Shown here: one piece after another, positions 630-49,510 of the stretch
How positions within the stretch are numbered: position 1 is the stretch's first letter
Layout: every line of letters begins with the position of its first letter
DNA from: Siphonodentalium dalli
Lineage: Eukaryota > Mollusca > Scaphopoda > Gadilida > Siphonodentaliidae
Length of the DNA stretch: 64,000 nt
NCBI GenBank assembly: GCA_032622095.1
Contig: CP136065.1
Location: 152,649,577 to 152,713,576 of the forward strand
Direction: 5' to 3'
Notes under the pieces: model-generated
What the model saw: the letters and a program-made list of their open reading frames with translations, nothing else
What the model was told of the DNA's origin: nothing
Databases searched by the model: none
Translations under genes and position numbers: made by a program

Positions 630-2182
630 TACTATATATTTTGAGACTTCGTATATATGTGTGTATGTGTGTACTTCATAGAATCCAAAACGCGTGTACA
701 GATTGAGCTCAAACTTCCTATGTAAGTGTCAAATCCCACCGACACGACCGTGGTCGCAGTTTAGAAAAGCTCAGAGCACCCGTTCTCCAATCTCAAATCA
801 CCGCAAAGGCACGGCGTGGGTTAATCAAGTGATTATTTAATGAGCGTTTGTTTTTGATGCATCTCTATAAAGAGCGTCTGTTTGCCATTCAACGCTATTT
901 GCATCTGCAGAGAGATATACGGAATATACATTAAATTTTAAAAACATTTGTTTCTGACCAACCCTGCGAGCACGGATGGCGCGCTTTGTTTTTACAGTAT
1001 ATAGTTATATACCGAAATCATCCCAGATAATCACGAATATAGCATCAGATTTCTCCCCAGATATACCGTTATAAAAAGCTACTGGAATCTGCCAATCTAC
1101 GGGAAATTCCAGGGAATGCCGATTGAGCTCAAACTTGCTACCCACGGGAAGTGTCATATATATGAGTGTGTCCTTTATAGACTCGAACCGATTGAGCTCA
1201 AACTTGCTAAATAAGAAAATAGACCCCAAGCCGTAAATATCAACAACAACGATATTGCTACCTACGGGGAGCAACGTTATTAGCATCTGCAGAATTATGC
1301 AGAGAGAAAATGCTTTCCTATTTTTAGAACGCAACACATGTTTACGTCGCGTTGGTGATTGAGGTTCACAACGGGGTTAATTGACTGTCCGCTCTTTGCG
1401 ACGATGAGGTTCACGGCGGGGACTATTGACCAACACTCACAATTTCGTCTTTTGCATCAGATACCAACACCTCGACCGATCGGAACGAAACTTGGTACGT
1501 GAGTGTAGTTTGACCAGGTGGTCGTCGCTGTCGTATTGGCGAGCCCGTGCGACGCCCGTGCAGGGCATGCGCAGACGAGATATCGGAAACGGGTGGAGCT
1601 ATCGACTTGAAATTTGGTATGTGAATGTATCTTGTGCCGGGTACAAATTTTATCGGTTCTGCAATATAATTGCCTCAAAGTGTTCAGATTCATTGTTATA
1701 GTATGTATGACACTTAGGTCAGGGCTTAGGGGGGGTAGTTAGAGTGGATATAGGCATAATGCTTCTCAGAAATCCCGGCAGACGAGATCTCGGAAACGGG
1801 TGGAGCTATCGACTTAAAATTTGGTATGTGAATGTATCTTGCCCCGGATACGAATTGTATCGGGTCGCCGAGTCCGTGCGACACCAGCTTCGCGCATGCG
1901 CAGACCAGATCTCGGAAACGGGTGGAGCTATCGACTTGAAATTTTGTATGTGAATGTATCTTGCCCCGGACACGAATTTTGTCGGGTCGCCGAGCCCGTG
2001 CGACACCAGCTTCGCGCATGCGCAGGCCAGATCTCGGAAACGGGTGGAGCTATCGACTTGAAATTTGGTTTTTGAATAGCCCGGACAACGTCGGGCTCAT
2101 CATTAACTCATTAAAATAATTTTAAAAAATTAGAATTGTCATGTTTCTGACGATTGCCGCCAGTGGCGGGCTAACCTGCTAG
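630..2182 (+). mobile_element. Decayed Helitron region with family C 3' end
   Basis: It begins directly after the preceding CTAG with TACTATATATTTTGAGAC, a degenerate form of the 5' terminus of family A. It ends with hairpin GCCGCCAGTGGCGGGC and CTAG at 2179-2182. At 2072-2100 there is also a family-A hairpin (AGCCCGGACAACGTCGGGCT), so two elements have recombined or one sits in the other. Contents: three loose copies of a GATTGAGCTCAAACTT motif (704, 1118, 1189) and 122-bp units from 1560. No gene was found. Confidence 0.5.
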
Positions 2183-2692
2183 TCTCATATATATTTTGAA
2201 GACCTCTGTTTGTCTGTCTGTCTGTATGTATGTTTGTCTGTCATTTATACAAATCTACGATTCTCGACCGATCGGGACGAAACTTGGTACGTGTGTGTAG
2301 TTTGACCAGGCGGTGGACGTTGTCGCATTGGCGAGCCCGTGCGGCGCCCGCTTCGCGCATGCGCAGACGAGATCTCGGAAACGGGCCGCGCTATCGACTT
2401 GAAATTTGCTATGTGAATGTATCTTGCCCCGGATACGAATTTTATCGGGTCGCCGAGCCCGTGCGACGCCAGCTTCGCGCATGCGCAGACGAGATCTCGG
2501 AAACGGGTGTTGCTATCGACTTGAAATTTGCTATGTGAATGTATCTTGCCCCGGATACGAATTTTATCGGGTCGCCGAGCCCGTGCGACGCCAGCTTCGC
2601 GCATGCGCAGACCAGATCTCGGAAACGGGTGGAGCTATCGACTTGAAATTTGGTTTTTGAATAGCCCGGACAACGTCGGGCTCATCGGCTAG
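2183..2692 (+). mobile_element. Non-autonomous Helitron, family A
   Basis: The 5' end is TCTCATATATATTTTGAAGA and the 3' end is hairpin AGCCCGGACAACGTCGGGCT, then CTAG at 2689-2692. The terminal TC, the subterminal hairpin and CTRR are the Helitron signature. Both ends match those of the Rep-helicase element at 40385-48344, so this is probably a deletion derivative of it. The body is tandem 122-bp units. Confidence 0.82.
2235..2640 (+). repeat. 122-bp tandem repeat inside family A Helitron
   Basis: The core ATGCGCAG recurs at 2359, 2481 and 2603, exactly 122 bases apart. The unit contains CGGAAACGGG, a TATCGACTTGAAATTTG segment, GTGAATGTATCTTGCCCCGG and CGGGTCGCCGAGCCCGTGCG. The same unit recurs at 1-2066, on the minus strand at 3600-4340, and at 40480-40740. 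Its open frames on both strands are artefacts. Confidence 0.85.
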
Positions 2693-3125: not shown

Positions 3126-3143
3126 ATTATTATTATGTCTTAT

Positions 3144-3588
3144 TTAGAAGGTTAAGGTCAGGTCGGGGTCACGATTTGACCCGTCCAAAATACTCAGTGG
3201 ACAAAAGTAACCCTATGTATCAAATTTCGTGGAAATCCCATCAAAATTCGCGATTTGACCTTTAAATGACCCGATTTCAAGGTCAAGGTCACGTCGCAAG
3301 GGCAAATTAATAGGTTTATGCACTCCCCGGCCGAAGGTACCCCCACATACCAAGTTTCATCGAAATCCCGTGATATTCGGGCGTTTGACCTTGAAATTAC
3401 CCGATTTCAAGGTCAATGTCACGACGCACGGGCAAATTAATAGGCCTATGTCACTCCCCGGCCGAAAATACCCCCACATACCAAGTTTCATCGAAATCGG
3501 CTCGGCCGTTTTCGAGTCCATCGATTACAGACACACACACACACACACACACCCTCACACACACAGATCTTCCAAAATATATAATAGA
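3144..3588 (-). mobile_element. Non-autonomous Helitron, family B, internally deleted
   Basis: Read on the minus strand it starts at 3588 with TCTATTATATATTTTGGAAG and runs down to CCTTCTAA at about 3144-3151. Compared with 48345-49266 it lacks the 3' hairpin. It contains several AAGGTCA motifs and an (AC)n run at 3532-3551. Confidence 0.55.
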
Positions 3589-4088
3589 CTAGCCGATGAG
3601 CCCGACGTTGTCCGGGCTATTCAAAAACCAAATTTCAAGTCGATAGCTTCCCGTTTCCGAGATCTGGTCTGCGAATGCGCGAAGCTGGCGTCGCACGGGC
3701 TCGGCGACCCGATAAAATTCGTATTCGGGGCAAGATACATTCACATACCAAATTTCAAGTCGATAGCACCATCCGTTTCCGAGATCTGGTCTGCGCATGC
3801 GCGAAGCTGGCGTCGCACGGGCTCGGCGACCCAATAAAATTCGTATCCGGGGCAAGATACATTCACATAGAAATTTTCAAGTCGATAGCTCCACCCGTTT
3901 CCGAGATCGTGTCTGCGCATGCGCGAAGCGGGCGCCGCACGGGCTCGCCAATACGACAATGACGACCGCCTGGTCAAACTACACACACGTACTAAGTTTC
4001 GTCCCGATCGGTCGAGAATCGTAGATTTGTATAAATGACAGACAGACAAACAGACAAACAGACAGAGGTCTTCAAAATATATATGAGA
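3589..4088 (-). mobile_element. Non-autonomous Helitron, family A
   Basis: Minus strand: the 5' end TCTCATATATATTTTGAAGA is at 4088 and the 3' hairpin plus CTAG is at 3589-3592. It directly abuts family B (3588) on one side and another family A copy (4089) on the other. It carries about three 122-bp units. Confidence 0.8.
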
Positions 4089-4472
4089 CTAGCCGATGAG
4101 CCCGACGTTGTCCGGGCTATTCAAAAACCAAATTTCAAGTCGATAGCTCCACCCGTTTCCGAGATCTCGTCTGCGCATGCGCGAAGCTGGCGTCGCACGG
4201 GCTCGGCGACCCGATAAAATTCGCATCCGGGGCAAGATACATTCACATAGCAAATTTCAAGTCGATAGCTCCACCCGTTTCCGAGATCTCGTCTGCGCAT
4301 GCGCGAAGCTGGCGCCGCACGGGCTCGCCAATACGACAACGTCCACCGCCTGGTCAAACTACACACACGTACCAAGTTTCGTCCCGATCGGTCGAGAATC
4401 GTAGATTTGTATCAATGACAGACAGACAGACAAACAAACAAACAGACAGAGGTCTTCAAAATATATATGAGA
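4089..4472 (-). mobile_element. Non-autonomous Helitron, family A (outermost copy)
   Basis: Minus strand: 5' end TCTCATATATATTTTGAAGA at 4472, CTAG at 4089-4092. The base before its 5' T on the minus strand is A, as expected for an A|T target. It contains two 122-bp units. Confidence 0.8.
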
Positions 4473-18132: not shown

Positions 18133-18436
18133 TTAGCTGAATATGAAGTCATATGTTATATTTTTCGCTGGCCAATCAGATCTTGGGATTTCCGCGCAGA
18201 CGGAAATAGATTTGGTGGTATACATTGTATTAGTCTGGCGGTAATTCGGGGTACGACAGTGCATGGACTTAGAATATACCATCGGAATAGAATTTGAACT
18301 AAGACATATATTAATTAATATCAATAACACATCATCTTAAACAAATTATTCAATTTTAATATCATACTTCGAACTAGTCCGTGAACCAGACTTTGATAAG
18401 CAGATAGATTTAGAATGGTCGGTTCACAGACTACAA

Positions 18437-18491
<55 letters not shown>
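18437..18491. repeat. (TTA)n microsatellite, LINE 3' tail
   Basis: About 17 TTA units; on the minus strand it follows the LINE 3' untranslated end. Duplicated at 23010-23064. Confidence 0.9.
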
Positions 18492-18493
<2 letters not shown>

Positions 18494-19678
18494 TTACATT
18501 TAAAAGCGCACTAGACAGTAAATTAGTTTCAATGCGCTTTATAATAGAAATACAGTTTAAAACAAAGAGATAACACAATATGATTCTAAAAGATATGTGA
18601 GTTTAAAAGAGGCCAAGGAGAATTAAAATACCACTTAAAACAGCGACGTACACAGCTAAAATGTAACGAATCTAGAATGTGCACAGCTAAAATGTAACAA
18701 ATCTAGAATCTAGAATCTATGAAAAATTAGTGAATGGAAAATAAGTGCGAACATTGTCAATTGGGCAACTGAAAACATTGACGAAAAAATATGTTTTCAG
18801 CAACGTTTTAAAACTTTCAACAGAGCGACAGCGCCTTATGTTCATTGGTAGTTTGTTCCATAACGCAATGGACACTTCCTGGAAACATAACATTCGATGC
18901 TTATTGCTCGGTTTGCCGCCGATGGTATTCAGGTCGCCTCATCTGTCACAGTAGCAAGAATGCAAACCAGATGTACAAACCACAAAACCTGAGATGCAAC
19001 CTTTAAAGGTACGGTTGGCCTTGGCGGTGGGTATACTGTGAAAATATTTCCACCCATCAAAAACCGCCACAAACAGAAAGAACAACAAAATGTAGACATA
19101 CTTTGTCGTATACAAATAAGAAATATCGCATAAACAGTATGTTATTGTCATATATTTGACCATTGTTATGTAAACAAAAGCATAAACAGTTACTTTTCTG
19201 GTGTTTGTTTATATTATGATGGTAAACATAAAGAGCGTTCTTTGTTGGTGAATTCCTGATATGGAACGAATAAAGAGCGTTTATGCCATTTGTGTGTGAT
19301 TAGCCAGCAGCATTGTGCTGTCTTCTGTAACACAATCAGGCTCTTGCTTAGGTAAAATATAATAAATCTTTATGATGGTCATGGTATATATGAACGAAAC
19401 TGTATGCGTTTTAATGTTTTTCTGTTTACGGTGATTGGAACAAATATGAATATTTTCGACAACTAAGGCCTCACGTGCCTTTAAACCCGAGATCACAATT
19501 AGTTATCAAAATGTCGATCTTATCCACATTCTCCTCTGTGATTGTAGTCAGTAGGGAGTTAAGACTGTCAATACGTGATACAATCAGCGACAGCACAGCA
19601 TGTTTCATTGCTTCTTTTGTAAGATGTGATCTGATTCTTCTTAAACATCGCAAGTGGAAATGCCCGACTTTTAGAATG
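18437..19678 (-). pseudogene. LINE (CR1/L2 type) 3' half, in duplication unit 1
   Basis: Minus strand. At 19475-19678 the frame reads HFHLRCLRRIRSHLTKEAM and SRIDSLNSLL, the usual reverse-transcriptase thumb region of CR1/L2 LINEs (consensus 'YHLRNIRRIRKFLT', 'SRLDYCNSLL'). At 18717-18950 it reads ALWNKLPMNIRRCRSVESF and LLKTYFF then TAG, the usual LINE C-terminus. The 3' end is a (TTA)n run, 18437-18491. Between 18955 and 19474 no LINE sequence was recognised; an insertion with TAAAGAGCG motifs lies there. Confidence 0.72.
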
Positions 19679-19681
19679 TTA

Positions 19682-21983
19682 GGGTGGATACACACATGCA
19701 TGTAATGTCTGTATGTAAAATACATGTATTTTACATGGCCACACCAATAATTGACAAAATTAATCACCTGCACGCGAGATGTCAATTTCACCAGTGAGTA
19801 GTTATAAGCCATTATCAAACAAACTGCCATCAAGAAATTTCAGGCCAGTCATAAACATGTCTTCTTTCATGATTGCCGAAATGAGTAATTCTTGTCTGAT
19901 ATATGTTGCTGTTTTTCTCGAGTTATAATTCATTTCGAAAAGTGGATTAGAGCCGGTCGATTTTATACTTGATTTGTTTCTGTCATTTCTTGGAAACAGG
20001 GTCATCCAAAACAAAAATACAATATGCAGAATTCTTTTATAGTATGATACCGGCTTGTTGAGATTTCTCTGATAATTTGAGAGCGAGCTCATGTGATAAC
20101 ATTAATTCAATTGGGATTGCAAATATTCATTATAGCACCAAAAAATAATGCAGGTACAGCATTGAAATTAAAAAGAGTGACACTCCCCCCCCCCCCCCAT
20201 TTATATATATGTTTCTCAAGCCAAAGGTAGAACAAGCTCCTAACTGTCACAAGCTTGAATTATAACATTTTCTACAATAATCCATGATTGGGGGAGGGGC
20301 TGGTTCTCGAAAGCTTCCAATAACTAAGGGAGTTAATTGAATGTATCAGCCGGGATTATCTGGGCAAGAATTACAATATGTTTTACTTAAATATTCCGTA
20401 GTTGTAAATTTTGCGTATACATGTATAACTGTATAACACAAGAGAGGAAAGGTGACGTAGTTGGGAACTCGTAGCTAGGCAACCCTTTCGCCGAATGAAG
20501 ACAAACAGCAACACCATGCATTCAAATTTAAAGCTGTATAATATGTTCATAATTATATGAATATCATAAATTGCTGCATATTAGATTAATCACTCGTAGA
20601 AAACAGACACGACAGACATGACTACGATATTTATAAAGCAGGGTGTCAGGACTCAGGGTGCTGCATGCACCCCCCCCCCCCCCCCGTCGAGGAAATATGC
20701 AATGGTGAATTCGGTAGCTTCTGGGATAATATAGCTCCCCGTGTATGTTGGGGGTCAGGCCCGTTCCAAACGACGGATTTTTGTCGACTCGAATCTAATT
20801 GTATTAAATCCGTCGGTGATGCGTCTGCGGTCGATTTTGTTACAGACGGACGCATCTTTGTCGCGTCGAATCTAATACATCGGTCGATTTATTTAAAGGT
20901 GGATTCCCGGTTACCGTCAAAAATTGGTCACGCGTAGATATATAGAGGCCTATATATACCGGTATATGTTATACATATATATACTAAAATACAGTATAAA
21001 TTATGTATATATATATGCGCGACTGCAGCGTGAATATATGTGCTCATGTATATGAGGATGTATATAGTACATACAGATATATAATATACTATAATAGGCG
21101 CTACAAATAAATGTTATATCGTGCAACCAATTGCCATCTATGTGTATACCATGCATGTAAATACCGGTATACAAGAATTATTATAAATCATAGACTACCA
21201 CCGCCTACCCCTTATAATAAGGAATACCGGAATATATTAATTATTATAATTCATAGGCTACCACCCTATATCCTTTATAATAATGAATACCGGTATATAT
21301 TAATTATTATAATTCATAGGCTACTATCCATACCCCTCATAATAAGTAATACCGGTTTATATGAATTATTCTAAATCTGAGGCTACCACTCTGCCCCTTA
21401 TAATAAGGAATACCGGGATATATTAATTATTATAAATCATAGGCTACCACCCTATATTCTTTATAATAAGGAATACCGGTATCTATGAATATTATAAATC
21501 ATAGGATATACTATCCCTACCCCTCATAATAAATAATACCGGTATATATCAATTATTATAAATCATAGGCTACCACTCTGCCCCTTATAATAAGTAATAC
21601 CGGAATATATGAATTATTATAAATAAGAGGTTACCACCCATTTACCCCTCATAACAAGTAATGCCGGTATATATGAATTATTATAAATCAGTGGTACCAC
21701 CCCTACCCCTTATAATAAGTAATACGGGTATATTATTATTATACATCAGATACTACCACCCCTATCCCTTATAATAAGGAATATCGGTATATATGAATTA
21801 TTATAAATCAGTTGCTACAACCCATATCCTTATATCGGTATATATGAATTAATATAAATCATTGATAATATATCCATTATAAGATGGGAGTCAGTGACAT
21901 GCCATGTTCGTTGAGAAATCAAACTGCCATAATAATTAAAATGTTCACAATGTTACCTAAGCAATTCTTATAGATAATATCTT
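19682..21983. mobile_element. TTA-target element, 5' part, cut by duplication border
   Basis: It begins GGGTGGATACACACATGCAT after TTA (19679-19681). The duplication ends before its 3' inverted repeat, which exists only once, at 27216. Confidence 0.8.
20758..21983. mobile_element. TCA/TTA-target element with GGCCCGTTCCAAACG ends, 5' part in unit 1
   Basis: It begins GGCCCGTTCCAAACGACGG after TCA at 20755-20757 and is truncated by the duplication border. Confidence 0.8.
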
Positions 21984-22232
21984 TCTTTAAGGTTTAGACT
22001 TATTTCCCCTCCATTGAAAATAATACAATTTGAACAATAATCCAGATGAAAAAATACGTCAATAACTCAACAAAAACAACATGTTCACAGTTTATTACAA
22101 CGGATAAGTTGATAATACAATGTTTTGGAGCTTCCTCTTTAAGATGGTATATAATATGGCATATATTTTATATGTGTGATCTGGGGTTCTAAATATCGAT
22201 AAATTGATTCGCAAGTCAGAACAAACACTTAA

Positions 22233-22705
22233 AGGTACTCAATCCGAACAGAGGGTCCCCATCTCAACAGATTCCAACAACAACAATCCGATCAGAGGGT
22301 CCTATATTACTATTTCTTTGGCTTTGGGGGTAAAAAATATTTCATTCGAGTCGAGGAACCCATCAAACAAAGCTCAGAGTTATTAGATATTGATTTTAGA
22401 AATTTGTTATGTTCTCGAGATGAGTACTAATAATTGCCGTCCATTTCGTATCCTGCTCGAGATGTGTACACCAAAACAATATTCAAACAGACAAGGATGG
22501 ATAACTATAAAATCAAGTGGTAATAATAACGCAATTTTGACTGAGTTCTGGGCCAGTCCCGATAATGAAAAAAAATAGATTTCTAAAATCGATATCTAAC
22601 AAATCTGAGCTTTGATGGGTGACTTCCTCGACTCGAATCAAATATTTTTGACCCCCGAAGCCATTGAAATAGTAATTGAGAGGAGTTTTATCGGATTGAG
22701 TACCT
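22233..22705. mobile_element. Palindromic MITE copy 2, duplicated with unit 2
   Basis: Identical to 17660-18132 at an offset of 4573; not an independent insertion. Confidence 0.75.
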
Positions 22706-23009
22706 TTAGCTGAATATGAAGTCATATGTTATATTTTTCGCTGGCCAATCAGATCTTGGGATTTCCGCGCAGACGGAAATAGATTTGGTGGTATACATTG
22801 TATTAGTCTGGCGGTAATTCGGGGTACGACAGTGCATGGACTTAGAATATACCATCGGAATAGAATTTGAACTAAGACATATATTAATTAATATCAATAA
22901 CACATCATCTTAAACAAATTATTCAATTTTAATATCATACTTCGAACTAGTCCGTGAACCAGACTTTGATAAGCAGATAGATTTAGAATGGTCGGTTCAC
23001 AGACTACAA

Positions 23010-23066
<57 letters not shown>

Positions 23067-24251
23067 TTACATTTAAAAGCGCACTAGACAGTAAATTAGT
23101 TTCAATGCGCTTTATAATAGAAATACAGTTTAAAACAAAGAGATAACACAATATGATTCTAAAAGATATGTGAGTTTAAAAGAGGCCAAGGAGAATTAAA
23201 ATACCACTTAAAACAGCGACGTACACAGCTAAAATGTAACGAATCTAGAATGTGCACAGCTAAAATGTAACAAATCTAGAATCTAGAATCTATGAAAAAT
23301 TAGTGAATGGAAAATAAGTGCGAACATTGTCAATTGGGCAACTGAAAACATTGACGAAAAAATATGTTTTCAGCAACGTTTTAAAACTTTCAACAGAGCG
23401 ACAGCGCCTTATGTTCATTGGTAGTTTGTTCCATAACGCAATGGACACTTCCTGGAAACATAACATTCGATGCTTATTGCTCGGTTTGCCGCCGATGGTA
23501 TTCAGGTCGCCTCATCTGTCACAGTAGCAAGAATGCAAACCAGATGTACAAACCACAAAACCTGAGATGCAACCTTTAAAGGTACGGTTGGCCTTGGCGG
23601 TGGGTATACTGTGAAAATATTTCCACCCATCAAAAACCGCCACAAACAGAAAGAACAACAAAATGTAGACATACTTTGTCGTATACAAATAAGAAATATC
23701 GCATAAACAGTATGTTATTGTCATATATTTGACCATTGTTATGTAAACAAAAGCATAAACAGTTACTTTTCTGGTGTTTGTTTATATTATGATGGTAAAC
23801 ATAAAGAGCGTTCTTTGTTGGTGAATTCCTGATATGGAACGAATAAAGAGCGTTTATGCCATTTGTGTGTGATTAGCCAGCAGCATTGTGCTGTCTTCTG
23901 TAACACAATCAGGCTCTTGCTTAGGTAAAATATAATAAATCTTTATGATGGTCATGGTATATATGAACGAAACTGTATGCGTTTTAATGTTTTTCTGTTT
24001 ACGGTGATTGGAACAAATATGAATATTTTCGACAACTAAGGCCTCACGTGCCTTTAAACCCGAGATCACAATTAGTTATCAAAATGTCGATCTTATCCAC
24101 ATTCTCCTCTGTGATTGTAGTCAGTAGGGAGTTAAGACTGTCAATACGTGATACAATCAGCGACAGCACAGCATGTTTCATTGCTTCTTTTGTAAGATGT
24201 GATCTGATTCTTCTTAAACATCGCAAGTGGAAATGCCCGACTTTTAGAATG
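23010..24251 (-). pseudogene. LINE (CR1/L2 type) 3' half, in duplication unit 2
   Basis: Same as 18437-19678. Here the 5' continuation survives at 27220-27610 on the far side of the TTA-target element (24255-27216). Joining the two across one TTA keeps the reading frame open. Confidence 0.75.
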
Positions 24252-24254
24252 TTA

Positions 24255-27216
24255 GGGTGGATACACACATGCATGTAATGTCTGTATGTAAAATACATGT
24301 ATTTTACATGGCCACACCAATAATTGACAAAATTAATCACCTGCACGCGAGATGTCAATTTCACCAGTGAGTAGTTATAAGCCATTATCAAACAAACTGC
24401 CATCAAGAAATTTCAGGCCAGTCATAAACATGTCTTCTTTCATGATTGCCGAAATGAGTAATTCTTGTCTGATATATGTTGCTGTTTTTCTCGAGTTATA
24501 ATTCATTTCGAAAAGTGGATTAGAGCCGGTCGATTTTATACTTGATTTGTTTCTGTCATTTCTTGGAAACAGGGTCATCCAAAACAAAAATACAATATGC
24601 AGAATTCTTTTATAGTATGATACCGGCTTGTTGAGATTTCTCTGATAATTTGAGAGCGAGCTCATGTGATAACATTAATTCAATTGGGATTGCAAATATT
24701 CATTATAGCACCAAAAAATAATGCAGGTACAGCATTGAAATTAAAAAGAGTGACACTCCCCCCCCCCCATTTATATATATGTTTCTCAAGCCAAAGGTAG
24801 AACAAGCTCCTAACTGTCACAAGCTTGAATTATAACATTTTCTACAATAATCCATGATTGGGGGAGGGGCTGGTTCTCGAAAGCTTCCAATAACTAAGGG
24901 AGTTAATTGAATGTATCAGCCGGGATTATCTGGGCAAGAATTACAATATGTTTTACTTAAATATTCCGTAGTTGTAAATTTTGCGTATACATGTATAACT
25001 GTATAACACAAGAGAGGAAAGGTGACGTAGTTGGGAACTCGTAGCTAGGCAACCCTTTCGCCGAATGAAGACAAACAGCAACACCATGCATTCAAATTTA
25101 AAGCTGTATAATATGTTCATAATTATATGAATATCATAAATTGCTGCATATTAGATTAATCACTCGTAGAAAACAGACACGACAGACATGACTACGATAT
25201 TTATAAAGCAGGGTGTCAGGACTCAGGGTGCTGCATGCACCCCCCCCCCCCCCCCGTCGAGGAAATATGCAATGGTGAATTCGGTAGCTTCTGGGATAAT
25301 ATAGCTCCCCGTGTATGTTGGGGGTCAGGCCCGTTCCAAACGACGGATTTTTGTCGACTCGAATCTAATTGTATTAAATCCGTCGGTGATGCGTCTGCGG
25401 TCGATTTTGTTACAGACGGACGCATCTTTGTCGCGTCGAATCTAATACATCGGTCGATTTATTTAAAGGTGGATTCCCGGTTACCGTCAAAAATTGGTCA
25501 CGCGTAGATATATAGAGGCCTATATATACCGGTATATGTTATACATATATATACTAAAATACAGTATAAATTATGTATATATATATGCGCGACTGCAGCG
25601 TGAATATATGTGCTCATGTATATGAGGATGTATATAGTACATACAGATATATAATATACTATAATAGGCGCTACAAATAAATGTTATATCGTGCAACCAA
25701 TTGCCATCTATGTGTATACCATGCATGTAAATACCGGTATACAAGAATTATTATAAATCATAGACTACCACCGCCTACCCCTTATAATAAGGAATACCGG
25801 AATATATTAATTATTATAATTCATAGGCTACCACCCTATATCCTTTATAATAATGAATACCGGTATATATTAATTATTATAATTCATAGGCTACTATCCA
25901 TACCCCTCATAATAAGTAATACCGGTTTATATGAATTATTCTAAATCTGAGGCTACCACTCTGCCCCTTATAATAAGGAATACCGGGATATATTAATTAT
26001 TATAAATCATAGGCTACCACCCTATATTCTTTATAATAAGGAATACCGGTATCTATGAATATTATAAATCATAGGATATACTATCCCTACCCCTCATAAT
26101 AAATAATACCGGTATATATCAATTATTATAAATCATAGGCTACCACTCTGCCCCTTATAATAAGTAATACCGGAATATATGAATTATTATAAATAAGAGG
26201 TTACCACCCATTTACCCCTCATAACAAGTAATGCCGGTATATATGAATTATTATAAATCAGTGGTACCACCCCTACCCCTTATAATAAGTAATACGGGTA
26301 TATTATTATTATACATCAGATACTACCACCCCTATCCCTTATAATAAGGAATATCGGTATATATGAATTATTATAAATCAGTTGCTACAACCCATATCCT
26401 TATATCGGTATATATGAATTAATATAAATCATTGATAATATATCCATTATAAGATGGGAGTCAGTGACATGCCATGTTCGTTGAGAAATCAAACTGCCAT
26501 AATAATTAAAATGTTCACAATGTTACCTAAGCAATTCTTATAGATAATATCTTTCTTTATAACAAAGAGAGCGTGCGACAAATGACGTCATGTGTGTATT
26601 TCCTTAGATAAGGGAAACTCCCTCATTATTATAGCATTATCATATCATTATCATATCATTTGCATTCGTTCTTCGGCAACTTTCGGCTCTTCTCGTCACA
26701 TGTATTAGATTCGAGTCGACAAAAATCCGTCGTTTGAAACCAAGACGGATTTCAGACGCATCACCGACGAAGATTCGTCTGAATTGGACGGAGATTCGTC
26801 TGTGGTGCGTCTGACACGGATCTAATTGTTTCAAACGTCGCATTTTAGACGCATTTAATACAATTGTGGGTCTGGTATTAGATTCGAGTCGACAAAAATC
26901 CGTCGTTTGGAACGGGCCTCATAGCCCCCTGCGTTGGGGAAGAGGCCATCACTGGTATTAACATTAATAGAAGACTGACAATGATTTAAACAGAACGTCG
27001 ACCATTTGAGTTATCGCGCGAATAATTATTTTAAGCGGCCTGACGACTTTGTCCCAATCAACGGCTCTTCAGCGGTTCAGAGTTTAACTCACTGTGGTCA
27101 AACACAGTCGCAATGATTGGGTTGTCAGCTGACACATATTACACGGTGTGTATGATCCATGTAAAACGCCAAATACACGATATTTACAGAGATTACATGC
27201 ATGTGTGTATCCACCC
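24255..27216. mobile_element. TTA-target DNA transposon, full copy inserted in the LINE
   Basis: Its ends match those of 8635-11919, flanked by TTA at 24252-24254 and 27217-27219. It contains a second element (25328-26918). No transposase gene was recognised. Confidence 0.82.
25328..26918. mobile_element. PIF/Harbinger-like element with GGCCCGTTCCAAACG ends, full copy
   Basis: The roughly 40-bp inverted ends (GGCCCGTTCCAAACGACGG, then TGTCGACTCGAATCTAAT) are flanked by TCA at 25325-25327 and 26919-26921. The interior is a roughly 75-bp minisatellite (25735-26430) with core AATACCGGTATATATGAATT. The related element at 8635-11919 has no insert at the matching site, supporting mobility. The 1591-bp length and lack of a transposase mark it as non-autonomous. 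Confidence 0.82.
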
Positions 27217-27219
27217 TTA

Positions 27220-27610
27220 GACACCATTGTGTCCATTGTCATATTGGAATCAAAATATGCACCTATAGGTTTCGAATTTTCTTTGATGAAGAAATTATGC
27301 TATCACCAAGTTGTACGTCGAAGCCGGAATCAACACAACCTTTCACTTCTGCCGAAAGTGCAATAAGGTGATATTTGGAGGCTATGACCAGAAATTCGGA
27401 TTTATCATCATTCAGCTTTAATTTATGATCAAGCATCCAGTTCTTGACATCACATACAGAAACATGTTTCTAAACGACGTTTGGCTTCATCGTATCCGCC
27501 GACTTCCTTATGATCAAATTCAACATATATTTGAATGGCATCTGCATGAAGATGATAACTGACAGCGCGATTATCAAAAACTATAACTGCGCACATGTAA
27601 ATTTTTGATC
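27220..27610 (-). pseudogene. LINE reverse-transcriptase segment upstream of the inserted element
   Basis: Minus strand. It reads SYHLHADAIQIYVEFD (the catalytic YADD box degraded to HADA), then EAKRRLETC, VKNWMLDHKLKLNDDKSEF and KIRNLGAYFDSNMTMDTMVS. These are the ordered palm-domain motifs of CR1/L2 LINEs ('YADDTQLY', 'W...NKLKLN..KTEF', 'RNLGV.FDS.L.M'). A frameshift lies near 27480. The lost Asp residues mean it is inactive. Confidence 0.8.
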
Positions 27611-40100: not shown

Positions 40101-40384
40101 TAGAACAACCCAGTATGAAGTTATATTAATACATCCCAGACAATCATGTACATATATCAGGACCTGGCAAATATTCAATCGTAGAACGATTACAACCCAG
40201 TATGAAGTTATATTAATATATCTCAGACAATCACGTACATATATCAGGACCTGGCAAATATTCAATCGTAGAACGATTACAACCCAGTATGAAGTTATAT
40301 TAATATATCTCAGACAATCATGTACATATATCAGGACCTGGCAAATATTCAATCGTAGAACGATTACAACCCAGTATGAAGTTA
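40101..40384 (+). repeat. 87-bp satellite, left part
   Basis: CAGACAATCATGTACATATA recurs at 40137, 40224 (one change) and 40311, spacing 87. The array stops abruptly at GAAGTTA (40384), where the Helitron begins. Confidence 0.92.
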
Positions 40385-40934
40385 TCTCATATATATTTTG
40401 AAGACCTCTGTTTGTATGTATGTTTGTCTGTCTGTCATTGATACAAATCTACGATTCTCGACCGATCGGGACGAAACTTGGTACGTGTGTGTAGTTTGAC
40501 CAGGCGGTGGACGTTGTCGTATTGGCGAGCCCGTGCTGCGCCCGCTTCGCGCATGCGCAGACGAGATGTCGGAAACGGGTGGAGCTATCGACTTGAAATT
40601 TGCTATGTGAATGTATCTTGCCCCGGATACGAATTTTATCGGGTCGCCGAGCCCGTGCGACGCAAGCTTCGCGCATGCGCAGACCAGATCTCGGAAATTT
40701 TGTATGTGAATGTACCCGTGCGACGCCAGCTTCGCGCAGCCCTCGATACATGCACGAACATACATGTTATCAACTGGTCAATAATAACGAAATTGTGCCG
40801 TCATCATTCACAATACATGCACGAAAAGACACAAGACTTTATGTAATCAGATTCTTCCCACAACCACAGCACATTTCATCAACATTCATCCATTAATTAA
40901 TCAGAAGCATATCTTCCCCTATTCTGGCGTGAAC

Positions 40935-42260
40935 TGTGAACTGTGAAAATGCATTTATATTAGAATATCAAGCATGATATAGACGCTCTTTATTATTTCC
41001 ATATCAGGAATCCGTTCACAGATAACACTCTTTATATGTCTACCACACGCCACGAACTAACGTTTTGTGCATTTGTTGACATTATTGGGATGTACTTTCC
41101 TTGAATCAGAGCTTCGTGGAATATCTTTTCTGATTTCTTGATTACCATTGCAGTTCCATATCTCGGAAAAGGGTGGAGCTATCGACTTGAAATGTATTAA
41201 TCAGAAGAATATCTTCCCCTATTCGGGTGTGGATTGCTGCTCGCCTGCAAATCACCCGTCATAGAATCATATCTTCCCCAATAACTGTTTCATTGCAGTT
41301 AATCAACCGTCATAGAATCATATCTTCCCCTATAACTGTTTCATTGCAGTTACTGCATAGCTATCGACTTGAAATGTATTAATCAGAAGAATATCTTCCC
41401 CTATTCGGGTGTGGATTGCTGCTCGCCTGCAAATCACCCGTCATAGAATCATATCTTCCCCTATAACTGTTTCATTGCAGTTAATCACCCGTCATAGAAT
41501 CATATCTTCCCCTATAACTGTTTCATTGCAGTTACTGCCTTAACCTGTCTTTTCACGTATGTCAAGAACATTTTATCTCTCATTGTAATTACTGTGCATA
41601 TCTTCCCCTATTCTGGCGTGAACTGTGAAAATGCATTTCTATTAGAATATCAAGCATGATATAGACGCTCTTTATTATTTCCATATCAGGAATCCGTTCA
41701 CAGATAACACTCTTTATATGTTAGTCAGGAATTTTTATGTCTACCACACGCCACGAACAAACGTTTTGTGCATATGTTGACATTGCTGGGATGTACTTTC
41801 CTTGAATCAGAGCTTCGTGGAATATCTTTTCTGATTTCTTGATTACCATTGCAGTTCCATATCTCGGAAAAAGGGTGGAGCTATCGACTTGAAATGTATT
41901 AATCAGAAGCATATCTTCCCCTAGTCGGGTGTGGATTGCTGCTCGCCTGCAAATCACCCGTCATATAAGCATATCTTCCCCTATAACACTATCATTGCAG
42001 TTACTGCCTTAACCTGTCTTTTCTTATAATTTGCTATTTAAGCTCCCTAATTTATTTCGTCCACTGTGGATGTTCATTTCCACGTATGTCAAGGACATTT
42101 TATCTCTCATTGTAATTACTGTGCTAAAATCGGGTCAATAATAACGAAATTGTGCGTCATCCTTCACCGGCAGCCCTCGATACATGCAAGAAAAGACACA
42201 ATACTTTACAATATCTTCCCCTATTCGGGTGTGAACTGCTGGTCGCCCCTGACGAGATTG
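40935..42260 (+). repeat. Non-coding repeat block in the Helitron leader
   Basis: CATATCTTCCCCTATAACTG with TTTCATTGCAGTTA recurs from about 41276 to 42003; GGGTGTGGATTGCTGCTCGC recurs at 41225, 41408 and 41925. The segments 40935-41190 and 41600-41880 are near-copies. Its role is unknown; it could be accumulated tandem slippage upstream of the Rep gene. Confidence 0.75.
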
Positions 42261-42555
42261 GTCGCCCCTGACGAGATTCCACCATGAGAGAATCGAAACT
42301 TCACTTTAAATGCCCATCGTTGTAAGTGATGTCGGGCAATGTCCCACGCAAATTTACCTCAGAAATTTTCGAACTTTTCTTAAGTTTTTAGTATTATCTC
42401 GGTTCCCTCGAAGTTCATATAATTTGAACGGCCCTTCTGAGGGCCACTATTAGCGCAAAGGACTCGATAATACATAGAAAATGCCCCAGAAAAAGCGGAA
42501 GCTCATAGGCCGCAAGAGTATCAATACACGTGCGAAACAGATTTGTCGTGATAAC

Positions 42556-42970
42556 GAAACTGACGAACAGCGCCAGTTGCGGCTGGATGCCGATCGGCAG
42601 TCGACGGCCCTTTCCAGGGCGTCATAAACTGACGAACAGCGCCAGTTGCGGCTGGATGCCGATCGGCAGTCGACGGCCCTTTCCAGGGCGTCAGAAACTG
42701 ACGAACAGAGCCAGTTGCGACTGGATGCCGTTCGCCAGTCGACGGCCCTTTCCAGGGCGTCAGAAACTGACGAACAGCGCCAGTTGCGGCTCGATGCCCT
42801 TCGCCAGTCGACGGCCCTTTCCAGGGCGTCAGAAACTGACGAACAGAGCCAGTTGCGACTGGATGTCCATTCGCCAGTCGACGGCCCTTTCTAGGGCGTC
42901 AGAAACTGACGAACAGAGCCAGTTGCGGCTGGATGCCGTTCGCCAGTCGACGGCCCTTTCCAGGGCGTCA
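42556..42970 (+). repeat. 69-bp coding repeat, six copies, in the Rep N-terminus
   Basis: Units start at 42556, 42625, 42694, 42763, 42832 and 42902; the fifth is 70 bp and shifts the frame. Each encodes ETDEQRQLRLDADRQSTALS plus RAS, a charged, probably helical repeat. Related Helitrons are known to carry 'ET.EQR..RL' repeats at this place. Confidence 0.93.
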
Positions 42971-44325
42971 GAAACGGTTGCACAAACGGAATTGCGTCAA
43001 CGAAACGACCGAGTCGCTACTGCAAATGCCACAGAAGAACAGCAACGTCTCAGCGTTATTAGTTGGGGGAAAGCAGCCATGAATTACAATCCATCCATCG
43101 ATTATACATCTCACGACCCTTAGGTTTCTGCTGTTCTCGTGGGAAGGTCTCCCTTCCGATTCGTCCAGACCAACCACAGCCCCTGATAGGCCTACTTAGT
43201 GGCGATTCACCAGACTCGGAACATTTCCTCTACAACATCCGCCGATATAATTCGGCTTTCCAAATGACATCGTTTGGAGCTAATGTAATAACCGAGGGTG
43301 GTTTTATGCCAACATTCAAGGTTCAGGGCCAGATCTATCACAGAATTGGCTCGCTCCTACCTACAGCCGAACAACAACCCCGATTTTTGCAAGTCTACTT
43401 CATCGATGACCACCATGACCAGGCAAACCTTCGAGCATCCGATAACCTTAAACCTCATCTGATCATCGCAATCCAAGACATGTTGCACGCGGACAACTCT
43501 TACATTACTAGCTTCAAGTATGCCATTGAGTCAAATCCCGGTCCGAATCTCGATGTTGTCATCAATGCTGATAAAAAGCCTTCAGATGCACATCGTGGCA
43601 GGTTCAATGCCCCAGCTTGCAATGAACTTGCAGTGGTCATGACCGGGCAAGAACATGGGGCGCGAGACATAGTAATTAAGTCCCGTGATAACACAATCAG
43701 GATGATTTGCGAGACACACAGGTCATATGACCCTCTACAGTATCCTCTACTGTGTGTGCGTGGTGAAGATGGCTATCGCTTGGGGATCCAACATGCTGTC
43801 GGTCGAAAGAATGTCTCGTGCAATGAGTTCTATGCTTACTATTTCATGGTAAGGAGCAATTCTTTCAACCACTTACATCGGAGTAGGAATCTGTTCAATC
43901 AGTTTGCTGTCGACATGTATGCTAAGGTTGAATCTGAGAGACTGTTTTACATTCGTTCACACCAGCGTGAATTACGAGCAGATTCCTACATTCATCTCCG
44001 AGACAGCATCAATAACGATCAGACAGAAGGCCATGGTCAACTTTGTATACTTCCGTCATCATTCACAGGAAGTCCACGATATATGCAAGAGAAGACACAG
44101 GACGCCTTGACGTATGTGAAGAAATTTGGTCGCCCAGATCTCTTTGTCACGTTTACGTGTAATCCCAAATGGGAGGAGGTCAAGAGAGAGTTGTTCGAGG
44201 GCCAGGCACCAAGGGACAGGCATGATGTGGTTGCCCGTGTTTTCCGCCTGAAACTTCAGAAACTCATGTTTCTGGTGAAGAAATGTCATATCTTCGGGCA
44301 ATCATTATGTGACATGTACACCATC

Positions 44326-45097
44326 GACAAAAACTTCTCAATGTCATCTCACATCAGCAACCTATGCAGGTCCTTATATATGGAGCTACGGCGCATTTCG
44401 CATGTACGTCCATATATCTCCGAACAATCCACACAAATATTGATGTCCTCATTTGTGTTATCCAAAATCGATTACTGTAATTCTATTTTAGCAGGACTCC
44501 CAGATTATCAACTTCACAAACTTCAAAAAATTGTTAATATTGCTGCAAAAATTGTGTGCCGTGCAGGCAAATTTGATCATGTTACCCCACTGTTGTATAA
44601 ATTACATTGGCTTCCCATATTTGAACGAATTGTGTACAAACATGCTACTTTGTGTTATAGAAAGTCGGATATTGATAATGCTTTGCCACCATATATTGAT
44701 ACATTGTTGGTCAAATATGTACCTGCTCGACCACTTCGATCACAGGATGCGAATGCGATGGTTGTACCTAAACGTGATCTGATGTACTTTGGTCGCCGAT
44801 CTTTCGAGGTCTACGGGCCGACCATTTGGAACAACCTTCCCAAAGAGGTGAAACAGTCTGACTGTTTGGAAACATTCAAATCGGCCCTAAAAACTCACCT
44901 ATTCATCTCCCATTTCGGACAAATAACATCAGAAAACGTTGAGGAGACTTAATTATTGAAATACATGCATATTATTTATTGCGTATATGTTATAGTGTGA
45001 ATGTGTGTGACTGCGTTTGTGTGAATTGTTCAGCGCCATGAGCCATACGGGATATGGCGCTATACAAATACTCTATATTATTATTATTATTATTATT
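44326..45097 (+). mobile_element. 5'-truncated LINE (CR1/L2 type) inside the Helitron Rep gene
   Basis: The Helitron frame YTI is cut at 44325 and resumes with EWQKRGLPHSHI at 45098. The insert encodes the LINE C-terminal region (SKIDYCNSILAGLPDYQLHK, HVTPLLYKLHWLP, GPTIWNNLPKEVKQ, KTHLF) and stops at 44952. Its 3' end GGCGCTATACAAATA is followed by an ATT run, typical of L2-type LINEs. No clear target duplication is seen. The frame upstream is shared, so Helitron and LINE sequence form one open frame of 629 codons from 43063. Confidence 0.9.
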
Positions 45098-48000
45098 GAG
45101 TGGCAGAAGAGGGGCCTCCCCCACTCACACATCATATGGTTACATGATAAGATTTATGCAGACCAGATAGATAACATCATCTCGGCTGAATTGCCTGATC
45201 CCGAGCAAGACCAAACACTGTATGATTTTGTAAAGACGCATATGGTCCACGGACCATGCGGGCGGATCAATCCCAACTCGCCTTGCATGAAAGATAGCAA
45301 GTGCTCGAAGCGATATCCGAGACAGTTTTTAGCAGAGACCCAGACATCTAATGAAGGTTACCCTCTCTACAGGAGGCGTTCACCAGAAGATGGCGGTTTC
45401 ACTGCTAAAATAAGAATGAGAACTGGTGGAGACTTCGAAATCGACAACAGGTGGATTGTCCCTTATTGTCCTCTTCTGACGAAGTTATTCGATGCACATA
45501 TTAATGTTGAATTTTGCAGCTCTGTCAAGTCCATTAAATATGTGTGCAAGTATATAAATAAGGGTTCAGATGCTGCCATGTTCGCATTACGAGACTCGAA
45601 TGATGAGGTCAGCAAGTTTCAAATGGGCAGATATCTTAGCACAAGCGAGGCGTTCTGGAGAATATTTGATTTCCCTATTCACGACCGTCATCCTACAGTA
45701 GTTCGCCTCGCTGTCCATCTCGAAAATGGTCAGAGGGTGTATTTCACTGAGAATAATGCCCAGCAAGTAGCTGCTGCTCCACCAAAGGAAACGAGTTTAA
45801 CATTTTTTTTCACGACATGTCAAAATGATGAGTTTGCTCGGAGTCTTCTCTACCTTGAAATGCCCGCATACTACACATGGGCGAACAACAGATGGTCCAG
45901 GCGGAAGCGGGGTTCACCAGTTGATGGACAGGTTGGTGTCTTCAAGGACACGGCCCTGGGCAGACTGTACACGGTACACCCATCTCAGCATGAATGTTTT
46001 TATTTGAGGGTGCTCCTCTTGGAAGTTCGGGGTCCTGAATCTTTTGAAAGTCTGAGAACCATTGATGGTGAGGTATGCACGACTTTCCGCCAGTCTGCTA
46101 TCCAAGGAGGCCTTATTGAAGATGACAGACAATGGGAAGCAACTCTGTCCGAGGCTTCTGTTTCAAGAACGCCGAGGTGTATGCGTAGCCTCTTTGCTGT
46201 TCTGTTGCAGATGTGTGGAGTCTCAGATCCCAATGGTCTCTGGATGCAATTCAGAGAGGATATGTCTGAAGACTTCCGCTGGAGACAGCAGAGGCTCAAC
46301 CCAGATGTTGAGGTCGCCTTCAATGAAGATATCTTCAATCAAGCTCTCGTGGCCATTGAAGACAAGATTCTAGCACATGGAGGCCTTGAATTACACACTT
46401 TCGGACTTCCCCGAACTACCAGGATTGAAACTGTTCAACAACCAAGAGAAATACTTAGAGAGACGACATATGATAGAGATATCCTTGCTGATGTCATCGC
46501 TTCAAGTGAAGCGAAACTATTGCCAGAACAGCGGCATGTTTTTGACACAATTATGGGTTCTGTAAACGGTGTCGGTGGTATATTTTTCTTAGATGCGCCA
46601 GGTGGTACTGGTAAAACGTTTCTAATAAACTTAATTCTTGCCAGGATTCGGATTCAGGGGAAAATTGTCATTGCAGTTGCGTCATCTGGGATCGCTGCGA
46701 CATTGCTCCCGGGTGGTAGGACTGCTCACTCGGCATTCAAACTCCCGCTGAACTTAACAGTGAATGACCTGGCGACGTGCAATATAGCAAAAGGTACAGG
46801 GCTTGCGCGTCTACTCCGCAGTTGTGTAATGATTGTTTGGGATGAGTGCACCATGTCTCACAAACATGCTTTCGAAGCTCTGGACAGGACATTGCAGGAC
46901 ATTCGTGAGTGTAATGCGATCATGGGCGGTCTAACCTTGCTCCTGTCCGGAGACTTCAGACAAACGCTCCCTGTTATCCCTCGGGGAACGAGGGCTGACA
47001 TGGTCCGCGCATCTCTCATGTCGTCTTATCTTTGGCGGAGTGTTCGCTCTCTGCACCTGACAACCAACATGAGAGCCCATTCATATAACGACGAGATGGC
47101 CACCTCATTTGCAAGTGATTTGCTTCACATTGGAAATGGCGAATTTCATGGTAGCATAAATTTATCTGAATGCACCGACTGTTGTTGTGTCGGAAGTTGT
47201 GATGCATTGATTGGGGCAGTTTTCGGTGATCTGGTCAGCAACATGAGTGATTCTACCTGGCTATGTGAGAGAGCAATTCTCGCTCCTAAGAATGACACAG
47301 TTGACGCAATCAATCGTAAGATGCTGGCAATGGTACCTGGAGAGATCATTGCATCCAACTCTATAGATTCAATCCCAGATCCAAGTGACGTGGTCAACTA
47401 TCCTACCGAATTTCTCAATTCTTTGAGTCCCACTGGTATGCCACCACACGAGCTTTTCCTGAAAGAGGGTGTTCCGATCATGTTGTTGAGGAATATGGAA
47501 CCCCCCGAAACTCTGCAATGGCACCAGGCTCCTTATCAGGAAAATAATGCCTCATCTTATTGAGGCCGAGATTTTGACCGGGTGCGGCAAGGGTGAATAT
47601 GTGTTCATCCCTAGAATTCCCTTGATACCTACATACAGCACAATTGAGTTCCGAAGGCTGCAGTTCCCGGTTAAGCTAAGTTTTGCTATGACAATTAATA
47701 AGTCACAAGGCCAAACACTTAAAGTAGCCGGGTTGCAACTGGAGGAACCATGTTTCTCTCATGGTCAACTTTATGTTGCCATGTCACGAGTTGGTTGGCC
47801 AGATAACTTACACATCAATGCACCTGACAATGCAACAATCAATGTCGTGTACAGGGAGGCCCTCGGGTTATCAGAGATTGGTATGTGATCAGTGCTGGGC
47901 ATGCCTATTTAATGTATTGATCTCAGGAAGTATAATATGTGTATATAGTTCATTTAATTTATTGATCTCAGGAAATGTTCTTCGGTGATCGGTCGCCGGG

Positions 48001-48344
48001 CCGGAGAACATGTATATTGATGTACATTATGTATATACTATTTATTTAATTTATTGATCTAATGCTGCCACTGTCGGTCCCAAGCCCGAAAAACATTCAG
48101 GCCTTTGTTGTGATTTTAACTAGCTAAACTTTCTACCAACTAACAGAGGCCCGAATCGAAGCAGAGGGGGTCACACTTAAGCTATTATTACGGACGATTG
48201 CAAATCACCCGTCAAATATGACATAGGTTTACGTTTGGTGGCAACGATGAGAACCCTGTACAATGGTGTCGAAAATGACCTAGATCATATCTGATCTCTT
48301 ATATTTTGAGAAATAGCCCGGACAACGTCGGGCACATCAGCTAG

Positions 48345-49266
48345 TCTATTATATATTTTGGAAGATCTGTTTGTTTGTGTGTGTGTTTGTTTGTGTGTAA
48401 TCGATGGACTCAAAAACGGCTGAGCCAATTTCGATGAAACTTGGTATGTGGGGGTATTTTCGGGCCACGAGTAACATAGGCCTATTAATTTGTCCGTGCG
48501 AGGTCAACTTCTCACGTGCCGAGGTCAAATCTGTTTTTACGCTGTGTTACGGGACTTTCATTTGAGTTCGGTGCTTACAAATCGATTCGAAACAGCGCGA
48601 ATAATAACATGCCAGTCATAATAATGACACTATGAGAATCTTTCGTGTTTCCTCTTTCCAACGATATATAATATGTATGAATCCGTTTTAGTTATCTGCC
48701 TCAATTATTAAGAAGAAGTGGTACGATCTTCTATCAGGGTAAAAACAATGCGTAACTTCTATGACGTCGTTAGAGGTCATAAAGTTAGATCACGTTAACT
48801 CTTCTCCGGCCGATGCATTTGACTGTTTCAGACGTCTTGGCGATATCTCGGGCACCGATGGTAATTTATCTTTACGTTGAAACTTGATAATTAATGAGCG
48901 TGTGTATATGAGGCGCGTTTATATACTTCAGTGGAAATCAAATCGGGTTAAACTGGCGGATTTTTACGGACGAAATTTGATGCATAGGGTATCTCGGTAT
49001 CCGCTGGGCCGATTTCCCGGTATCCGCTGGGCCGATTTCCACCATTTTTGGGGTGTTGGTGTTTGACCCCACCTGACCTTGACCTTCAAAATGGTCAATT
49101 CAAGGTCAAATCGGGTAAAACCGGATGGATTTCGACGGGCACGTTTGTCTGGTACTTTTGTCCGGGCAGTGTTTTTGGACTGGTCAAATCGTGACCCCAC
49201 TTGACCTTGACCTTCAAAATGGACAATTCAAGGTCAAAGCCCGGACGAAGTCGGGTCACCTTCTAG
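48345..49266 (+). mobile_element. Non-autonomous Helitron, family B, complete
   Basis: It starts TCTATTATATATTTTGGAAG directly after CTAG of the autonomous Helitron. It ends with hairpin AGCCCGGACGAAGTCGGG and CTAG at 49263-49266, followed by the T of the satellite. It carries several AAGGTCA-type sites near its 3' end (49075-49110, 49200-49240) and no coding sequence. Confidence 0.87.
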
Positions 49267-49510
49267 TATTAATATATCTCAGACAATCATGTACATATAT
49301 CAGGACCTGGCAAATATTCAATCGTAGAACGATTACAACCCAGTATGAAGTTATATTAATATTTCCCAGACAATCATGTACATATATCAGGACCTGGCAA
49401 ATATTCAATCGTAGAACGATTACAACTCAGTATGAAGTTATATTAATATTTCCCAGACAATCATGTACATATATCAGGGACCTGGCAAATATTCAATCGT
49501 AGAACGATTG
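49267..49510 (+). repeat. 87-bp satellite, right part
   Basis: It resumes with TATTAATATATCTCAGAC, exactly the sequence expected after GAAGTTA within a unit, and continues for about 2.8 units. The left part (40101-40384) belongs to the same array. Confidence 0.92.

Follow-up and report, generated by a model that had tools for sequence, protein, structure and literature searches.

Two unrelated Helitrons are joined head to tail in a single A/T site of an 87-bp satellite in Siphonodentalium dalli (a slash within a sequence or between elements marks a junction). It is likely that these elements, A and B, were inserted independently and one after the other, that newcomers target the A/TC at the 5' end of a resident Helitron, and that stacks grow in the 5' direction. 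Across the genome, Helitron 5' ends of this type that are preceded by CTAG or A adjoin the CTAG of another element in about half of the cases. The pair lies in a stretch of 64,000 nucleotides that we analyzed as a whole (the window, on contig C5 of genome G000). Exact patterns were counted across the genome, which comprises 2.23 Gb in 9 contigs.

Two unrelated Helitrons in one satellite site

The satellite runs from 40105 to 40384 on the + strand (97% matches by TRF) and resumes on the same strand from 49267 to 49509 with TATTAATATAT, which fits the TA-tract target described below; both segments were delimited by TRF and by joining the flanks. Between 40384 and 49267 lie Helitron A and Helitron B, with no spare base between them. 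The junctions read ...CAGTATGAAGTTA/TCTCATATATATTTTG at 40384/40385, ...CATCAGCTAG/TCTATTATATATTTTGG between A and B at 48344/48345, and ...CACCTTCTAG/TATTAATATATCTC at 49266/49267. If 40385-49266 (8882 bp) is deleted in silico, the joined flanks form a satellite unit that is identical to the preceding 87-bp unit. The restored unit leaves no target duplication at the A/T site, and insertion between A and T is canonical for Helitrons.

Both elements have canonical Helitron ends, with TC at the 5' end and CTAG at the 3' end. Each also has a 3' hairpin with a 6-bp GC-rich stem, at 48316..48333 in A (11 nt from its end) and at 49239..49256 in B (both on the + strand, from a hairpin search); such a hairpin, about 10-12 nt from the 3' end, is another canonical trait. 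The bodies of A and B gave zero BLAST matches to each other at E 1e-5. The locus, with its CTAG/TC junction at 48341..48346 (+ strand, read from the sequence), therefore consists of two unrelated Helitrons in a single A/T site, which is the arrangement expected of consecutive head-to-tail elements.

Helitron A (40385..48344, + strand, 7960 bp) was delimited by its end sequences, 5'-TCTCATATATATTTTG ... CATCAGCTAG-3', and by homology to short A copies. It shares 313 bp at its 5' end (about 94-95% identity) and 33 bp at its 3' end (94%) with the short A copies at 2183-2692 and 4088-3589, so the short copies were probably mobilized by A-type enzymes. A has homology to Rep and to PIF1-type helicases, as in the autonomous type of Helitron: Pfam's Helitron_like_N matches 43828..44355 (E 1.4e-46), a PIF1-like helicase part matches 46517..47146 in a separate frame (E 6.4e-68), and a C-terminal helicase piece at 47547..47888, in a different frame, is a weak match below the Pfam cut-off (all on the + strand). 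A is not an intact autonomous element, as a foreign fragment and a frame break interrupt the Rep-helicase frame. The foreign fragment is about 0.7 kb (44374..45096 on the + strand, with approximate boundaries taken from the sequence); it lies within the Rep frame, immediately upstream of the GLPHSH stretch, and it ends in (TTA)n. It had zero Pfam matches, and we take it to resemble the 3' part of a non-LTR element of the L2 or CR1 type. A second frame change lies at 47547-47563. TRF also found direct repeats in A on the 5' side of the coding part: a 69-bp repeat with about six copies (42556-42975) and a 182-bp repeat with two copies (41177-41538).

Helitron B (48345..49266, + strand, 922 bp) was delimited by its end sequences, 5'-TCTATTATATATTTTGG ... 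CACCTTCTAG-3', and by its relatives. We take it to be non-autonomous, as it is too short for coding. Eight relatives are 94.4-98.5% identical to B along its length. Seven of the eight private substitutions of B are clustered at its positions 796-877, and this cluster may be a patch of gene conversion or recombination between B copies.

An earlier note on this DNA, made from the sequence alone, had described most of this arrangement correctly: the excision of 8882 bp that restores a perfect repeat unit, the two Helitrons with zero bases between them, and the short Helitron with TC...CTAG ends, which is B. It also called A a complete Rep-helicase Helitron, which is accurate for the ends but not for the coding part.

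CTAG/TC junctions across the genome

The exact 5' end of B occurs 9195 times in the genome: 4825 times after CTAG, 4008 times after A, and 362 times in other contexts. The reversed-pattern control for CTAG plus the B 5' end gave 0 matches, so the junction in the window is not a chance occurrence. Among the 4370 non-stacked B ends, 4008 are preceded by A. The exact junction counts were 2412 for B/B, 1715 for A/B, and 284 for B/A. A is thus about six times more common above B than below it, which may mean that A is the family that landed later or that A-type enzymes prefer B ends.

We also counted an 11-bp core motif that the 5' ends share, with the spacing T-N4-TATATATTTTG. This core was found 24,565 times after CTAG (99 in the reversed control) and 23,662 times after A (904 in the control). 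Sites with a purine at position 2 are mostly not Helitron ends, and they account for 217 of the matches after CTAG (control 3) and 1341 of the matches after A (control 437). Without the purine-2 class, 24,348 matches after CTAG and 22,321 after A remain. If we extrapolate from the density of A/T sites in the window (10,864 sites in 49.1 kb, both strands), then we would expect 4.4 junctions between CTAG and a 5' end if insertions were at random A/T sites, or 69 if they were at A/T sites with a TA tract; the observed 24,348 includes junctions that local amplification added without insertion (as at L088 and L089, below).

The earlier note had named a CTAG/TC count at chance level as evidence against its reading, and the actual count is far above chance (24,348 vs. 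about 4). The note had also suggested that, as the first insertion regenerates an A/T, a second Helitron could land at the same A. Two independent insertions are supported (see below), but a regenerated A/T by itself predicts only about 4 junctions in the genome, so the excess requires that the resident 5' end be actively targeted.

Per site, there were at most 0.16 insertions at purine-2 sites and 1.09 at Helitron ends, which is a difference of at least 6.7-fold. This ratio is probably a lower bound because many of the 100 purine-2 CTAG matches that we listed resemble mutated Helitron ends or array copies.

We listed the first 100 of the 4825 places where CTAG precedes the B 5' end and grouped those within 10 kb of each other. 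This gave 65 loci. Of these, 51 have one junction, nine have two, one has three, and the remaining four are clusters of 4 to 13 junctions.

Evidence for independent insertion of A and B

To describe what lies upstream of B, we took 40 loci from the 100 listed places and left out most of the clustered ones. The upstream neighbor was A in 20 loci, B in 14, D in 4, and C in 2, and the neighbors have many different lengths. (L027 and L028, both with D, have a common 3' flank and are apparently a single locus that was duplicated.)

A search with the window's junction and 300 bp on either side gave 4400 candidates, of which 40 were scored. Among the 39 scored matches besides the window itself, just one covers all 600 bp, at 82% identity, and none has both full sides at 90% or more. 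The remaining matches extend at most 116 bp beyond the junction on the B side and at most 35 bp on the A side. Such partial matches have one element in common with the window's pair, plus no more than the conserved end of its neighbor.

The relatives of each element tend to have other neighbors. Downstream of six relatives of A's 3' part, we found a B-like end (1), an A end (1), another Helitron-like 5' end (1, where the CTAG is shortened), a C-like end (2), and host DNA (1). Among the eight B relatives, an A-type CTAG end lies immediately upstream of two, an A precedes five, and a T precedes one. The exact ends, the restored site, the unrelated bodies, and the different neighbors of the relatives together support independent and consecutive insertion of A and B in the same A/T. 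More broadly, most of the sampled junctions look like consecutive insertions, as the elements joined belong to different families or are not each other's nearest relatives.

Target sites and a possible mechanism

We collected 57 3' flanks with no assignment to a Helitron end (from L001-L089) and removed 10 duplicates and 3 that were misassigned, which left 44 (42 for B and 2 for D). All 44 begin with T, and 303 of the 308 cells for positions 5-11 contain A or T. The sequence ATATA is present within 12 nt in 40 of the 44 host flanks, as compared to 634 of the 10,864 A/T sites in the window. A TA tract thus lies roughly at +5 to +11 past the A/T in the sampled host sites. Helitron 5' ends (TCTATTATATATTTT and TCTCATATATATTTT) and the satellite site (TATTAATATAT) have the same layout. 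Within the satellite unit, the site that was used has the top score, by a position weight matrix (PWM) built from the host flanks, among the 15 A/T sites on that strand.

We considered whether mimicry of the TA tract could fully explain the preference for Helitron ends, and we dropped this idea. Relative to average A/T sites, the PWM gives the 5' end of B just 3.5 bits (about 11-fold) and that of A 1.9 bits (about 4-fold), and the score for C is -2.7; also, non-Helitron sites with the same core are used at least 6.7 times less. Because the scores are modest and the per-site rate at non-Helitron cores is low, some further feature of the resident end must matter. Most simply, this would be the terminal sequence where the transposase binds and nicks at the start of transposition.

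In the mechanism that we propose, the transposase would recognize A/TC together with the 5' terminal sequence as its best target. The same A/TC would be the site where the transposase nicks a resident Helitron to start its transposition. That A would be linked to the arriving element, whose own 5' end would become the next target. Stacks would then extend in the 5' direction, with the newest element on top. The single-strand transposons of the IS200/IS605 family, which move by a bacterial HUH enzyme, have as their target a sequence that is also needed beside their own left end. The target that we propose for these Helitrons would likewise be tied to the element's own left end; IS200/IS605 elements are bacterial and have a fixed short target, so they are an analogy only for the inferred mechanism.

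A wider version of this proposal is possible, but we hold it tentatively: target choice would use the recognition that starts transposition, each insertion would create a new favored site, and families would pile up in the 5' direction, which would keep about half of the new copies out of fresh host DNA and would seed satellite-like arrays. If so, then the front end of the element, as its own favored target, is a built-in safe harbor that spares host sequence, and self-targeting builds arrays that can become satellite DNA. The junctions of this genome make the target choice of a eukaryotic HUH transposase testable.

Order of insertion

Either order of insertion leaves the same final sequence, so the sequence by itself is compatible with both. 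The earlier note's suggestion that the B copy is the older of the pair is not shown by these data: B has 8 private substitutions in 896 positions and A has 9 in 1119, and over 300 bp, the nearest relative among those compared is 99.7% identical for both elements. We also dropped the converse idea, from the junction matches, that B is younger than A: those matches overran the junction and their identities were rounded, and the later values were 99.7% for both.

We then asked, for pairs of B elements, which member is closer to its nearest relative. With both 3' ends required to be exact, we found 53 B/B pairs; 51 of these had values, and 48 remained after we removed 3 pairs from L088. The upstream member was nearer to its closest relative in 26 of these pairs, farther in 16, and tied in 6 (Wilcoxon P = 0.041; sign test P = 0.16). 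For the 37 pairs with host DNA below the lower member, the upstream member was closer in 21 and the downstream member in 11 (P = 0.018). A set with looser ends (82 junctions, minus 22 without a located downstream 3' end and 2 of the other 60 without values; n = 58, with L088 kept) gave 33 vs. 19 (Wilcoxon P = 0.013), with a design that favors old lower members; with the mean of the three nearest relatives, this set gave 29 vs. 26 (P = 0.13). In a smaller earlier set, from which 3 L088 pairs were removed, the upstream member was closer in 12 of 17 pairs for 3' segments (P = 0.045), and 5' segments showed nothing (7 of 13).

Other comparisons were less clear. Crossover age tests with A/B and B/A junctions gave null results (P = 0.62 and 0.72; paired, 0.92 and 0.92, with 10 pairs each). 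The comparison of B ends that lie directly above a Helitron (98 ends) with those above host DNA (75 ends) gave P = 0.084 (L088 and L089 were removed, and 173 of 177 ends had values). By divergence from a single consensus, the downstream member was less diverged in 13 of 20 pairs for the 3' segment (6 opposite, 1 tie) and in 12 of 20 for the 5' segment (8 opposite). We set the consensus measure aside in favor of identity to the nearest relative because some subfamilies are up to 0.43 from the consensus.

We also looked for scars of 2 or 4 nt that a newcomer might leave. In the A/B/B stack at L086, TC is left above the top element, and the bottom element starts with TACTATATATTTTGAG, which is as expected if newcomers land just inside the resident 5' end; this is a single case, and family C frequently lacks TC after CTAG anyway. 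At L152, L156, and L157, which have TC-less junctions and whose top is visible, the expected scar is absent. With one fitting case and three without a scar, this idea is no proof. Overall, there is weak and mixed support for the upstream member being the newer one across the genome.

Alternative explanations

The main alternative is that stacks grow on the 3' side: a newcomer would attach at the resident's CTAG (a G/T site), where the transposase perhaps nicks to end transposition. The final sequence would be identical, the members of the window's pair look about equally old, and the consensus-based ages (downstream less diverged in 13 of 20 pairs) lean this way. Also, the part of the 2008 maize report that we drew on (PMC2267711) lists lines with the left element only and none with the right only, and one reading of this is a later insertion at GT. 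Against this, 4008 non-stacked B ends follow A and 362 are in all other non-CTAG contexts, so there is practically no use of G/T in host DNA; the nearest-relative test on B/B pairs leans in the opposite direction, and so does the scar at L086. We consider addition on the 3' side to be unlikely, and stacking on the 5' side is the better model, also because non-A contexts are rare in host DNA.

The other alternatives are all highly improbable. In composite transposition, the 3' end of A would have been bypassed and A and B copied jointly. Bypass of Helitron ends is known, according to parts of two reports (PMC4778049 and PMC5148889), but among the 39 other scored matches (of 4400 candidates), just one spans the junction, at 82%; moreover, the relatives of A and of B have differing neighbors, and the neighbors' families and lengths vary widely. 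We therefore rejected it and give it very little weight. Rolling-circle concatemers or tandem amplification in place could also produce head-to-tail junctions, and this does hold for some arrays (L088 and L089). For the locus in the window, this is refuted by the unrelated bodies of A and B. Elsewhere, the partner equaled or surpassed the nearest other element in similarity in just 6 of 51 B/B pairs, 3 of them in L088, and 51 of the 65 loci have a single junction. We give amplification about as little weight as composite transposition. We rate equally low a chance double landing in a TA-rich hotspot, with no mutual attraction. The satellite site does match the TA-tract target, and at L014, L034, and L047, a few bases of host-like DNA separate the neighbors. 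But the junction counts refute chance landing, even at TA tracts, unless most of the junctions are assembly artifacts.

Comparison with known Helitrons

Since 2007-2008, a few cases have fed a debate on whether head-to-tail Helitrons arise as rolling-circle repeats or by consecutive insertion. In Myotis lucifugus, perfect head-to-tail junctions without an extra A, like those described here, were read as tandem repeats (Pritham and Feschotte 2007, as cited in part of PMC2267711); in contrast, most of the junctions that we sampled resemble consecutive insertions. In maize, one CTAG/TC junction between different bodies was attributed to consecutive insertion, and the part of that report used here discusses landing between the host's A and the resident's T and considers both orders (PMC2267711). 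That was one case, with the order left open; here, the junctions are counted across the genome, insertions per site are compared, and the target sites are profiled. Head-to-tail junctions and tandem arrays of Helitrons are also mentioned for plants and bats in part of another report (PMC5876387).

For the laboratory transposon Helraiser, the sections of the report that we used describe an A/T target, a preference for AT-rich sequence that is strongest on the 3' side, and a run of AT-rich sequence close to where the 5' end is cleaved (Grabundzija et al. 2016, PMC4778049). The Helitrons of this genome also have an A/T target with an AT-rich 3' side. In those sections, the new insertions of Helraiser do not cluster around donor sites, whereas here, resident 5' ends are a main target. 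A preference for AT dinucleotides is reported in the part of a study of wheat Helitrons that we used (PMC13286980). The Helitrons of Fusarium have self-insertions, including insertions into 5' ends, and multiple 5' termini, but these are a few cases of the non-canonical Helitron2 type, with no dominant target choice in the portion of that study used here (PMC5148889).

Thus, the type of junction and the idea of insertion at the same A were already known (from maize, in 2008), and the scale and the preference for self-targeting are new. We did not find a genome-scale count of CTAG/TC junctions in the literature that we searched. As far as that literature goes, the new elements are the scale, the evidence for consecutive insertion at most of the sampled junctions, the lower bound on the preference per site, and the testable claim that the resident 5' end is a favored target. 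With about 2000 exact junctions between families (A/B and B/A) and the sampled pairs within a family, most of the junctions examined seem to be consecutive insertions.

Other stacks and arrays

The window contains two more Helitron stacks, in opposite orientations, at 2183-4472: C/A/B on the + strand and A/A/B on the - strand. In the former, Helitron C is on top (630..2182, + strand, starting with TACTATATATTTTGAG after CTAG), followed by a short Helitron A (2183..2692, + strand, by sequence and BLAST) and directly by a B 5' end at 2693. In the latter, a short Helitron A is on top (4089..4472, - strand), followed by another (3589..4088, - strand, by sequence and BLAST) and directly by a B 5' end at 3588. 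The segments 2183-3099 and 4088-3201 are inverted relative to each other and are 89.5% identical over 918 bp.

L088 (C1:16050600-16055300) is an array of B units of 803-927 bp whose 3' segments are 97-99% alike. In the nearest-relative comparison, the closest relative of these units is the array partner, and L088 looks like local tandem amplification. Arrays of this type, with units that are copies of each other, have the form of rolling-circle tandem arrays, and the A/B pair does not. L089 (G000 C3:109604135-109612365) repeats a stack of several A-type ends in tandem, in steps of about 1.37 kb, with a common variant 5' end that accounts for 7 entries among the purine-2 CTAG matches listed; it is a stack turning into a satellite-like array. 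In the window, TRF rows recur at 18374-27500 with an offset of about 4.57 kb (18440/23013 and 21160/25730), which suggests a large tandem duplication.

Family C mostly lacks TC after CTAG (CTAG/TACTATATATTTTGAG), as at position 630 of the window and at L012, L016, L029, L086, L108, and L113, and TACT predominates among 100 listed of the 2655 matches after CTAG. After a host A, family C reads A/TCTACT, with the TC present. Extra copies of TCTA are also seen (TCTATACTATATA, and TCTATCTATCTATCTCAT in L107). Ends that start with TT (TTTAATATATATTTTG) are found both after CTAG and after A, and from their sequence, they look like a further Helitron family.
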